64,000 bases of DNA from Halorussus salinus. GTDB taxonomy: Archaea > Halobacteriota > Halobacteria > Halobacteriales > Haladaptataceae. The position numbers and the translations under genes were made by a program. Under the pieces are notes generated by a model that saw only the letters and a list, made by a program, of their open reading frames with translations, ran no database searches and was not told where the DNA came from. How positions within the stretch are numbered: the first letter of the stretch is position 1; each line of letters begins with the position of its first letter. The DNA lies in the NCBI RefSeq assembly GCF_004765815.2, contig NZ_ML974129.1, forward strand, positions 1 through 64,000, read 5' to 3'. Shown piece after piece: positions 42,953-46,338 of this stretch.

Positions 42953-43020
42953 CCAGTGATGACGCCGAACTCAGATGCGGTACTGCCGCATCGTTTTGTG
43001 GATAGTTCGTCGCTGAGTCA

Positions 43021-45168
43021 TTACTCGTCCGAATCGTCGTCGTGGAACCACTGGTCGGTCCACCGGAGGGTGCCGTTGACCACCAACGGTGCGAAATCGT
43101 CGCCGATTTTAGCGTCGACCTCTCTGAGTTGGTGTGTCGACTGTAATGACGCAGGGGCGACGTAGGATTCTGGACTCTCCTCGTTCCGGAAGTACGGCGT
43201 AACGACCATACCGTGGGAGCGGTCCGGGGGATTGTAACTTATGATCTCTGCTTCGACTGTTTCGTCCGGGTCGGGGCGATCTTCCGAGTCGAACTCTAAC
43301 GCTGCTATCACCGGCGTGGCATCTCTACACTGTGCCACCGTGACGTTCGGATCGCCGACCACGACGTAGTGGTGTCCGATACTGGTGTACTCGTCTACGA
43401 CTTCGAGTGCGCCCCCGACACCGAACCCGTAGTTGAGCAGTCGTGCAAACGTTTCGCCGACTTCGAGCGCGCCGAGATTACCGACATCGCCCCAGCTCAC
43501 GATTGCGGCGCGTGCCCCCGCTTCCAAGAGTGCAATTCCTTGATCGTGCGACCGACATGCGTTGAGTAGCACCGTCGTCGCACCGGTCTCCGGGAGCGTC
43601 TCGGCGTCGAGGAGACCGTCGGGGCACTGTAGTCCCCGACCGTCTACGTGGCCGATGAAGTGGAACAAGTCGTGGTCTTCAGACAATAGCGCCCGAAGCT
43701 CGTCGGTCGAGACGCCGAAGCGACAGTCCACGTCGAACGGGACTACGTCTCGATTTCCGTATACTTCCGAGACGGCGTCCCACTCCTCGCGCATCTCCTC
43801 GTCGTTGCAGACGACCGTTACCTCGATGACGCCGTCAGTCGATTCCGTTGGTTCGTGTTGGAACGCCGCCGGGTGGAATTTCGACCCGTGAACCGGCGTC
43901 CCGTCGCCGACCCACGCTCGCTCCATCGCCTCGGTCTCCGGAAGCGGAACGTACTCGCCGAAGTCGGGGACGCCAGCCGCTCGCTCGTCCGAGTAGTCCG
44001 GGAAGTTCGGTTCTGTGGACGTCGAATTGCGTTTGAACGAGTCTAGTGCTTCCAACTCGCGGTCCCGTCGAGCCTCGGAAGATGGAGAAAAATTCGGCGT
44101 CGATGGGGATTTCGTACGGATTATCGAGAGGTCGTTGACGATGTACGGTAGAACTTCCATGCTCTCGGCGACGGGGCGAGCGTAGACGACGCGGCCCCAT
44201 GTCGGTTTGGCTTCGTCTAGCACCGCCTCTGGTATCGAGAGGTAGGTTTCGAGACGTTCCGCCAACGGAGTTTCGTAGAGCGCCTCGGTGTCGAGATCGA
44301 CGAACGACTCGACCGCTCGGTGTTCGGCGAGGTCCGTCTGGTGAAATCCTTCGGTTCGGGTCACGCAGTCGAGAATGAACGCCTGTTTCAGTACTCGGGC
44401 GACCTTGTCTTCGAAGTCGTCACCGTCACCGAACGAGTGACTGAAGCCGTTCTCAGTGGTGAGTCGCGGCACTTCACCGGGGACGACGGTCGCCCCGAGG
44501 TAGTACGCCAGCGGGGCGACCGGTAGAACGTACCGGTACTCCGCCGGAACGTGAATCGTAACCCCGGTCTCGGGAACGTCGAGGTCGTCGGGAATCGACA
44601 GTTCGTCTCCTCGTTCGATGCGCGGCGGGTGTCCGCGCAGAGAGGGCCACGACCGCTCCGGAGTAGTCGTCTTCGGTGCCGATCCGAACGTCGATACTGC
44701 TCGCATAGCCGCTCTCGGTTCGTCGGGCACGGTTACGGTGGTTACGGGAGAAGTATGTATCGACCGCACCCCGACTTCGACGAGGGTTTCGGACCCGAAG
44801 TCGAACCGGTGTCGGTTTTCGGCCACGGACAGAGAGAACGACGACTCGATACGGAGGTAGAGAGTGAACAGTGTACCGATATCGAGCAAGTAATCGTCGG
44901 CGTCGAACTCCCAATTTCCACTCCGGTCGATGTCGCAGATGTGTGTCCCATCCTGTGCATCTCTGATTCCAATTAGCGGCTTCGTCGGAAGCGTAATACC
45001 AGATGTGACGAATCGTCGTGCGACTGTCACGGGGTAGACGAACCGCTCGGTGTCGGTCGGGGTCAACGACACCGGTTCGGGTGTGTGGAGGACGTAGCGA
45101 TGGCTCTCGATGGGGTCTACTATCTCCACGCCGGGTCGGTCGCCGAGCGAGTCAATTCGTGGTCGCAT
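43021..45168 (-). CDS. CHAT-domain (caspase-like) protein
   Basis: 715-aa protein. The C-terminal part (about 450-615) is a CHAT domain with the caspase-type dyad: HFIGH (His507) and LLNACRS (Cys538), followed by GARAAIVSWGDV and GETFARLLNYG. The N-terminal 440 residues have no recognised domain; there is a strand-rich part with repeated charged loops and a predicted helical core (about 250-330). The last 100 residues form a beta-rich tail. CHAT proteases cleave partner proteins in signalling and immunity. It is 72 nt downstream of the KaiC-like gene on the same strand, so both are probably one operon. Its third-position GC looks lower than that of neighbours. Confidence 0.88.
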   Translation of the reverse strand: MRPRIDSLGDRPGVEIVDPIESHRYVLHTPEPVSLTPTDTERFVYPVTVARRFVTSGITLPTKPLIGIRDAQDGTHICDIDRSGNWEFDADDYLLDIGTLFTLYLRIESSFSLSVAENRHRFDFGSETLVEVGVRSIHTSPVTTVTVPDEPRAAMRAVSTFGSAPKTTTPERSWPSLRGHPPRIERGDELSIPDDLDVPETGVTIHVPAEYRYVLPVAPLAYYLGATVVPGEVPRLTTENGFSHSFGDGDDFEDKVARVLKQAFILDCVTRTEGFHQTDLAEHRAVESFVDLDTEALYETPLAERLETYLSIPEAVLDEAKPTWGRVVYARPVAESMEVLPYIVNDLSIIRTKSPSTPNFSPSSEARRDRELEALDSFKRNSTSTEPNFPDYSDERAAGVPDFGEYVPLPETEAMERAWVGDGTPVHGSKFHPAAFQHEPTESTDGVIEVTVVCNDEEMREEWDAVSEVYGNRDVVPFDVDCRFGVSTDELRALLSEDHDLFHFIGHVDGRGLQCPDGLLDAETLPETGATTVLLNACRSHDQGIALLEAGARAAIVSWGDVGNLGALEVGETFARLLNYGFGVGGALEVVDEYTSIGHHYVVVGDPNVTVAQCRDATPVIAALEFDSEDRPDPDETVEAEIISYNPPDRSHGMVVTPYFRNEESPESYVAPASLQSTHQLREVDAKIGDDFAPLVVNGTLRWTDQWFHDDDSDE

Positions 45169-45240
45169 GCTTCTGAACGTCTCCGCTGGTCTATGGTCGC
45201 GGCAAGCAGTCGGGTCGGCTAGTCCGGTTTGCCCGGTCGG

Positions 45241-46005
45241 TCATAGGGGGAACCAGTCGGTCACTAAGTCGCGACTCGCGACGCGCCAGCGCTCCTCGGC
45301 GTGGTGGCCGTCGCGGCCGCTGTCGACCGCGCGTATCTCGACCACGGCGTCGAAGTCGTCGGCGATTCGTTGGACGCGCTCGCTGTCGTACGGTTCGGTC
45401 AGGACGTAGTGGCCCATCGCGTCGTAGTCGGTGACGTAGCCGGTGACGACTTGGAGACAGCGGCGCACGACGCCAGCGTCGTAGTGTTCGAAGAGCGCCC
45501 CGAGCGAATCGACGCCGACGCGCAGTTGGGCCGGACGAAGCCCGCCCGCGTGGCGGTTGAACGTCGCCATCGACTCGGCCAGTTCCGCCTGCAGGCCAGC
45601 GAGTTGCGGGTCCACGACGCGCCGCTCCGAGAGGTCGCCCAGCGGCGGCGTCTCGGGCGGGTCATCGCTCTCTACGACCGACCGAGGAGGCGACGCGTGG
45701 TTGACGATCTCGGTCGTCTCGCCGAACTCGCCGGGCGTCTCGTCGGGGTCGGGGAGGCGCTCGACGACGCTCTGGGCGCTCGCGTCGGTCACCGCGAGGA
45801 GCCGGTACCGCTGTTCGTCGGTCCCCCCGAGCAGTCCCGCGCTGGCTTCGGTAAACAGGCGGCGCGGCGCGTCCCCGACCACCAAGAGGTTACACCCGTC
45901 GGCCTTCAACTCCCGTAGCACGTCGAGAAACCGAGGAGGCTCCTCCGAGGCAGTCACATCGTCGCCCGAGCCGCTCCCCCGATACCCGGAACTCCCTGCA
46001 CTCAT
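45241..46005 (-). CDS. degenerate RecA/KaiC-like protein (DUF7504-like)
   Basis: 254-aa protein. CNLLVVGDAPRRLFTEASAG (38-57) stands where a KaiC/RadA P-loop would be, but the GxxxxGK[ST] residues are lost (GDAPRRLF). A later block LRVGVDSLGALFEHYD (161-176) resembles the Walker B strand, and AMGHYVLTEPYDSE (196-209) the following strand, so the fold is probably RecA-like without ATP hydrolysis. The start at 46005 fits a TATA-like box; ATG 46047 is less likely. It is cotranscribed with the CHAT gene. Confidence 0.72.
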   Translation of the reverse strand: MSAGSSGYRGSGSGDDVTASEEPPRFLDVLRELKADGCNLLVVGDAPRRLFTEASAGLLGGTDEQRYRLLAVTDASAQSVVERLPDPDETPGEFGETTEIVNHASPPRSVVESDDPPETPPLGDLSERRVVDPQLAGLQAELAESMATFNRHAGGLRPAQLRVGVDSLGALFEHYDAGVVRRCLQVVTGYVTDYDAMGHYVLTEPYDSERVQRIADDFDAVVEIRAVDSGRDGHHAEERWRVASRDLVTDWFPL

Positions 46006-46030
46006 TGAGCAACCGGTTGCAGATGTATAG

Positions 46031-46038
46031 TTAATAAA
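46031..46038 (-). promoter_or_regulatory. TATA box for the KaiC-like/CHAT operon
   Basis: Read on the minus strand, TTTATTAA is centred 29 nt before the ATG at 46005, the right spacing for leaderless transcription. It lies in a 189-nt divergent intergenic region shared with the zinc-ribbon gene. Confidence 0.65.
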
Positions 46039-46160
46039 CTTTCGCACCGACGAGAGCAGAAATCTGGACTCCGAATCGGTCGATTCGCCGGGGTTTTCGC
46101 GGCGAGAATCCTAGTATGCGGTAAAATACCGTGTATGCCTCGATATCCAATTAGGACAAC

Positions 46161-46168
46161 CATTAACA
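46161..46168 (+). promoter_or_regulatory. TATA-like box for the 47-aa zinc-ribbon gene
   Basis: cattaaca is centred 30 nt before the ATG at 46195. It is weaker than the divergent box and is proposed mostly from its position. Confidence 0.4.
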
Positions 46169-46194
46169 CCGACTTCGTGTGAACTGTTACCACG

Positions 46195-46338
46195 ATGGTT
46201 CGGACTGATTCCTACCGACCGGGGACCGCGACCTACGAGTGCAACGACTGTCTGGAACGCGTGCGGTCGAGCGACTTTCCGGGACCGTGCCCAGAGTGTG
46301 ACGGTGAGATGCGGAACATCGCCGTCCCGCGGGAGTGA
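46195..46338 (+). CDS. 47-aa zinc-ribbon (rubrerythrin-like) protein
   Basis: Small protein read directly from the sequence: MVRTDSYRPGTATYECNDCL at the start and a second knuckle PCPECDGEMRN. The two CxxC pairs (C16/C19 and C32/C35) make a single rubredoxin/rubrerythrin-like zinc site. The stop TGA is at 46336. Such small zinc proteins occur beside the KaiC-like family in haloarchaea, as I recall. It is divergent from the KaiC-like/CHAT pair and may be a partner. Confidence 0.82.
   Translation: MVRTDSYRPGTATYECNDCLERVRSSDFPGPCPECDGEMRNIAVPRE

Follow-up and report, generated by a model that had tools for sequence, protein, structure and literature searches.

The CRISPR-activated CHAT proteases Craspase/Csx29 (TPR-CHAT) and SAVED-CHAT are among the closest described counterparts of the gene analysed here, and share with it the caspase-like CHAT fold, a His/Cys dyad and a dedicated partner gene. 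The gene lies in a stretch of 64,000 nucleotides (nt) of the Halorussus salinus genome (contig NZ_ML974129.1, positions 1 to 64,000; hereafter the window) and belongs to a haloarchaeal family of predicted proteases. Unlike Craspase and SAVED-CHAT, this family has no CRISPR gene among its recurrent neighbours, and its partners are a KaiC-fold pseudo-ATPase, DUF7504, and a putative short peptide precursor, DUF7503. An earlier note on the locus had proposed a trio made up of the CHAT protease, the KaiC-like protein encoded upstream of it and a divergently encoded zinc ribbon (DUF7129), and had suggested examining how often the three occur together. We report that DUF7503, not DUF7129, is the true third partner of the CHAT family.

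Both partners have described counterparts. Haloarchaea possess inactivated KaiC-like ATPases (iKaiC; PMC5847659, citing Makarova et al. 2017); DUF7504 resembles iKaiC in its KaiC fold, lost P-loop and many copies per genome, but differs in being tied to a protease gene. DUF7503, with its predicted signal sequence and short tail, recalls multi-copy pheromone precursors such as yeast alpha-factor as well as short Gram-positive signals, whereas its archaeal origin, its pairing with a caspase-like protease and the lack of a known exporter or receptor set this putative precursor apart from known peptide pheromones. To our knowledge, multi-copy peptide pheromones have no archaeal counterpart. Literature searches returned none either, nor any mention of DUF7503 or DUF7504, or of ‘CHAT domain’ together with haloarchaea.

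Two properties of Haloferax volcanii bear on the family. Caspase-like activity is very strong in this species, but at the time of PMC3615174 it had been traced to no protein, and no caspase gene is recognised there; being widespread and mostly annotated as ‘hypothetical protein’, the CHAT family is a candidate source. The disk-forming quorum signal of H. volcanii is described as a small molecule that resists proteinase K (PMC12240190), which leaves the idea that a DUF7503 peptide is this signal unsupported.

The CHAT family and its recurrent partners

Structure prediction confirms that the focal protein has a caspase-like CHAT fold. Its AlphaFold model (predicted local distance difference test, pLDDT, 90.7) aligned with SAVED-CHAT 8tl0 (VIA Z 16.9, root-mean-square deviation 2.2 across 168 residues) and with separase, gingipain R and Craspase (VIA Z 12-16.5), the matches covering residues ~324-613 and hardly touching the N-terminal region. 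Against the Pfam CHAT model PF12770 the protein scores 18.8 bits, below the cut-off of 24. Most members in the H. salinus genome likewise fall under this cut-off, and one paralogue, neighbours included in the frame, reaches 25.7 bits; scoring mostly below the cut-off is why the family stayed hidden. The earlier note had named His507 and Cys538 as the catalytic pair, and the conservation check bore this out: His507, within the motif HFIGH, and Cys538, within LNACRS, are invariant in all 93 homologues. The CHAT-type dyad is intact and strictly conserved in these predicted proteases.

The 4.75-Mb H. salinus genome encodes 11 CHAT paralogues, including the focal one, and the family is present in 131 of 145 Halobacteria genomes. 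It is found in many Haloferax species and also on megaplasmids, and is largely unannotated: those plasmid records that annotate the gene mostly give it as ‘hypothetical protein’. A caspase-fold family with a dedicated short peptide partner is thus encoded by about nine in ten Halobacteria genomes. Loci L124-L126 and the H. salinus paralogue C2c (L017:5809-7932) form a deeper subfamily, for which L124-L126 display the motif LNACGS. Its members apparently lie near a TbsP-type regulator gene, confirmed by Pfam in L017 only; no DUF7503 was seen at L124-L126, and C2c has a small open reading frame (ORF) ending in Gly-Pro.

The short ORFs facing the 3′ ends of CHAT genes in H. salinus belong to Pfam family DUF7503 (PF24335). 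A profile search of this genome gave nine matches, six over the cut-off and three under it, and all were convergent at CHAT 3′ ends; reading by eye completed the three weak matches and added a tenth case, at C2c. DUF7503 is therefore found at 10 of the 11 paralogues, the focal copy being the exception. Across related loci, DUF7503 is convergent within 400 nt of CHAT in 68 of 78 evaluable cases from 19 genera, with a median gap of 9 nt between the open frames. Among the 145 Halobacteria genomes, 120 carry DUF7503 and none of these lacks CHAT (Fisher p = 4e-13); among the matches listed for Halobacteria genomes, 86 of the 87 evaluable ones are convergent with CHAT and 15 further ones fall outside the 87. 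Of 120 genomes sampled from across the phylum, 14 had DUF7503, all of them from the window's own order. H. volcanii, included as a control, has DUF7503 and gives no match to the Pfam CHAT model. Clustering of neighbouring genes returned only CHAT, DUF7503 and DUF7504 as recurring in more than ten genera.

Two side observations concern the surroundings of DUF7503. In Haloferacaceae, DUF7503 or its tandem form is preceded on its own strand by a gene for a HalX response regulator, an arrangement that clusters 19 loci from 6 genera (for example L065:7427-8116 and L122:5124-5807). At G012:C1:486534-486796, two tandem DUF7503 matches stand beside CHAT, apparently through duplication of the whole gene.

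The KaiC-like protein encoded upstream of the focal CHAT gene matches DUF7504 (PF24336) with 154.8 bits against a cut-off of 27. Its model (pLDDT 86.8) resembles KaiC 8dba (Z 16.8), and profile comparison matches KaiC chains at E 0.004. A Walker A GK[ST] lysine was found neither in the focal protein nor in the homologues displayed in the alignment; with the fold but not the P-loop lysine of a KaiC/RecA ATPase, DUF7504 is predicted not to be an active one. Having no ATP-binding loop, it is therefore probably an adaptor or sensor. H. salinus has 24 DUF7504 genes. By coordinates, DUF7504 adjoins 8 of the 11 CHAT paralogues, on either side and on the same strand, and at related loci it lies within 1.2 kb of CHAT in 51 of the 78 evaluable cases (14 genera). 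The pairing of protease and KaiC-like pseudo-ATPase put forward in the earlier note thus recurs well beyond the window.

The zinc ribbon fared differently. The focal 47-residue protein is a clear DUF7129 member (69.8 bits against a cut-off of 30 for PF23455), and its divergent adjacency, seen at the focal locus and at its orthologue L022, would suit the proposed role as substrate or adaptor of the CHAT and KaiC-like proteins. DUF7129 is, however, near only 1 of the 11 H. salinus paralogues, the focal one, and near 1 of the 78 evaluable related loci, L022; of the five loci that share the focal clade, four lack it, and the second of the two H. salinus DUF7129 genes over the cut-off lies away from CHAT loci. 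On this comparison of co-occurrence the trio is rejected and the CHAT/DUF7504 pair retained. We give the zinc ribbon's membership next to no credence: at the focal locus, DUF7129 is a bystander.

The DUF7503 tail and its tandem forms

DUF7503 proteins are ~44 residues long and in most genera look like a Sec-like signal sequence followed by a variable, mostly 9-residue tail that ends in Gly-Pro. All contain a hydrophobic segment, preceded immediately by Pro in 75 of 78 and by Arg/Lys in 75 of 78 proteins. Judged by alignment position, the -3/-1 rule of signal peptidase is satisfied in 72 of 78, and the predicted mature length is 9 residues in 54 of 78, our best estimate; the 9-mer predicted in Haloferax, for example, is GNTGVIYGP. 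Variability peaks in the tail (2.87 bits of entropy), except at the terminal Gly-Pro (0.16 bits). Of the 78 proteins, 71 finish with Gly-Pro; the other seven (L038, L055, L081, L088, L092, L093 and L095) have ends such as GTIR, TTIA, SLGT or SISGI.

Purifying selection acts on the family (ratio of nonsynonymous to synonymous polymorphism, pN/pS, 0.23 in Haloferax). The codon pattern for Gly-Pro followed by a TAA or TAG stop occurs 268 times in the genome, corresponding to ~0.01 expected per strand-specific stretch of 400 nt. A chance ORF is ruled out by selection, conserved end and position. We also dropped the idea of a nascent-chain arrest peptide with a SecM-like terminal Gly-Pro, because DUF7503 runs towards the convergent CHAT gene and so has no same-strand gene immediately after it to regulate, and because an arrest peptide would have no use for 13 tandem copies.

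Such tandem copies were encountered in genus g43, which we infer to be Haloplanus from its member L075 (same protein as L135). Two genomes of this genus, seemingly devoid of DUF7503, encode soluble repeat proteins at the same convergent position, in which a 13-residue unit (for example TADGNSGGISGP-Y/F/S) recurs 13 and 7 times. In all, nine g43 genomes carry tandem precursors of 2-14 copies, though a masked stretch breaks up one of the arrays. Their cores of 9 residues (GNSGGISGP, GNGGGISGP, GNSSGISGP, GNGGAVSGP and GNGSGISGP) are identical within each genome and different between species, and match the single-copy DUF7503 tails of related genera, such as GNHGAISGP in Halobellus. The residue preceding them is mostly Asp (TAD-GN...). 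In arrays of more than two copies, the cores are 100% identical in protein and the copies 83-94% identical in DNA; the peptide is therefore kept by selection. With identical cores, spacers and a copy number that varies between species, the tandem form is built like the yeast alpha-factor precursor.

A more divergent form may exist in the remote genome G124, whose 11 divergent CHAT matches come without a Pfam DUF7503 match; at several of them, convergent small hydrophobic ORFs have Gly-Pro near their end. Among the loci concerned (L107, L110, L111, L114, L116, L119 and L121), some tails are longer and Gly-Pro is not always terminal (for example SEYSGPTNP).

Readings of the module

Taking together the gene association, the invariant dyad, the predicted folds, the purifying selection on DUF7503 and the tandem copies, all of which are established here, we give an even chance to a reading in which CHAT, DUF7504 and DUF7503 form a module and the peptide is a specific ligand or product of the CHAT protein. 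The DUF7503 precursor would be cleaved at a signal-peptidase-like site, releasing a mostly 9-residue Gly-Pro peptide; the CHAT protein would sense (or mature) the released peptide, which would switch its proteolysis of a cell target, and DUF7504 would transmit or tune the signal. The focal CHAT protein would have to draw its peptide from elsewhere among the ten further CHAT loci or else respond solely to DUF7504.

Several points weigh against this reading. An enzyme and its partner are not usually encoded convergently but in an operon; roughly one CHAT locus in three has no adjacent DUF7504, and the focal locus itself has no DUF7503. Counted from the end without alignment, mature lengths of 8 and 9 residues are about equally allowed, and the hydrophobic segment might anchor the protein stably in the membrane. 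The signal sequence predicted for single-copy DUF7503 is missing from the tandem precursors, which would call for another export route or an intracellular peptide. Moreover, secretion, cleavage, contact between peptide and protease, and the direction of control are what we infer.

A further-reaching proposal is that short secreted peptides ending in Gly-Pro, having diverged from species to species and also among the paralogues of a single cell, control caspase-like proteases via KaiC-fold adaptors, as a class-wide form of archaeal cell-cell signalling that also supplies the missing gene for caspase-like activity. We find this rather doubtful. Were the peptide a signal, it would be an archaeal counterpart of multi-copy peptide pheromones; were the signalling proposal true, the missing gene for haloarchaeal caspase-like activity would be found as well. 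A laboratory genus amenable to genetics allows the peptide-signal and caspase-activity ideas to be tested together.

The same features allow other readings of the protease and its partner. CHAT might be the peptide's maturation protease, cutting for example between tandem repeats, and not its receptor. The repeats require cuts at both ends of the core, the residue before each core, mostly Asp, would provide a caspase-like site, and the gene pairing is strict; yet the usual single-copy precursor needs signal peptidase alone to yield the 9-mer, and several CHAT loci, including the focal one, keep the dyad without a precursor. We judge this role unlikely. DUF7503 might, on the other hand, be a membrane-acting effector, with CHAT cutting at the conserved Pro-Arg/Lys and the freed helix damaging or depolarising the membrane, much as in protease-gasdermin pairs. 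The hydrophobic segment common to all DUF7503 proteins and the residues just before it fit this idea, as do metacaspases and gingipain R, relatives in the CHAT fold that cleave after basic residues. A basic residue at this place is also predicted by the positive-inside rule, though, and conservation of the terminal Gly-Pro goes far beyond the needs of a pore former. The tandem precursors, furthermore, have lost the helix and kept and multiplied the tail, so the helix does not appear to be the essential part, and the partner is a small protein with a Pfam family of its own rather than a gasdermin-fold substrate. An effector of this kind seems to us quite unlikely.

The earlier note had also pointed to defence, and many bacterial CHAT systems do act in anti-virus or abortive-infection modules. 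Craspase and SAVED-CHAT, both CRISPR CHAT proteases, have the same fold, and the many paralogues and megaplasmid copies would suit such a role. A family that is near-universal in its class speaks against it, however. PADLOC models gave no match at the focal locus, no confirmed CHAT-family relative was present in viral contigs of the scanned collection, and neighbour clustering found no recognised defence gene among the few recurrent neighbours. A defence system is thus without support from any of these three analyses, and we consider this function, which the data do not indicate, very unlikely.

The focal locus

The three ORFs of the focal locus are as the earlier note had described them, with 72 nt between CHAT and the upstream KaiC-like gene and 189 nt between the latter and the divergent zinc ribbon. 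The DUF7504 gene has an alternative start, an upstream GTG at 46047, which would extend the protein to 268 residues.

Features of the focal locus, in window positions (aa, amino acids)
Feature	Position	Strand	Basis or remark
CHAT-type (caspase-fold) cysteine peptidase, predicted, 715 aa	43021-45168	-	profile, alignment, structure model
Caspase-like catalytic core, residues ~440-612	43333-43851	-	structural alignment range
Codon of catalytic His507	43648-43650	-	invariant, 93/93
Codon of catalytic Cys538	43555-43557	-	invariant, 93/93
Conserved N-terminal region of CHAT, residues 1-320	44209-45168	-	high-confidence model, alignment
DUF7504 (PF24336), KaiC fold without P-loop, recurrent CHAT neighbour	45241-46005	-	254 aa from ATG
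DUF7129 (PF23455) zinc ribbon, rubrerythrin-like, 47 aa, bystander	46195-46338	+	Pfam profile
Gap at CHAT 3′ end, usual position of convergent DUF7503 elsewhere	42953-43020	.	no such ORF

In the gap downstream of CHAT we found neither a DUF7503 profile match nor a convergent ORF of ~44 residues ending in Gly-Pro; the 3′ end of the focal gene directly faces a convergent thioredoxin-like gene. A tree of CHAT proteins places the focal one with L018-L022 (Shimodaira-Hasegawa-like approximate likelihood ratio test, SH-aLRT, 100), among which only L018 has DUF7503; L020 resembles the focal locus in having a thioredoxin-like gene directly convergent with CHAT. The clade of which the focal gene is an orthologue is thus mostly devoid of the peptide gene, and yet the catalytic dyad has been kept. 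The label ‘no DUF7503’ changes eight times over the whole tree, an upper figure to which three special cases contribute: L087, which is truncated at an edge, L075, which bears a tandem array, and L035, where a small ORF ending in Gly-Pro was seen. Elsewhere in the H. salinus genome, L011:5968-12653 holds two CHAT genes that face each other, each with a DUF7503 of its own in between, and one DUF7504.

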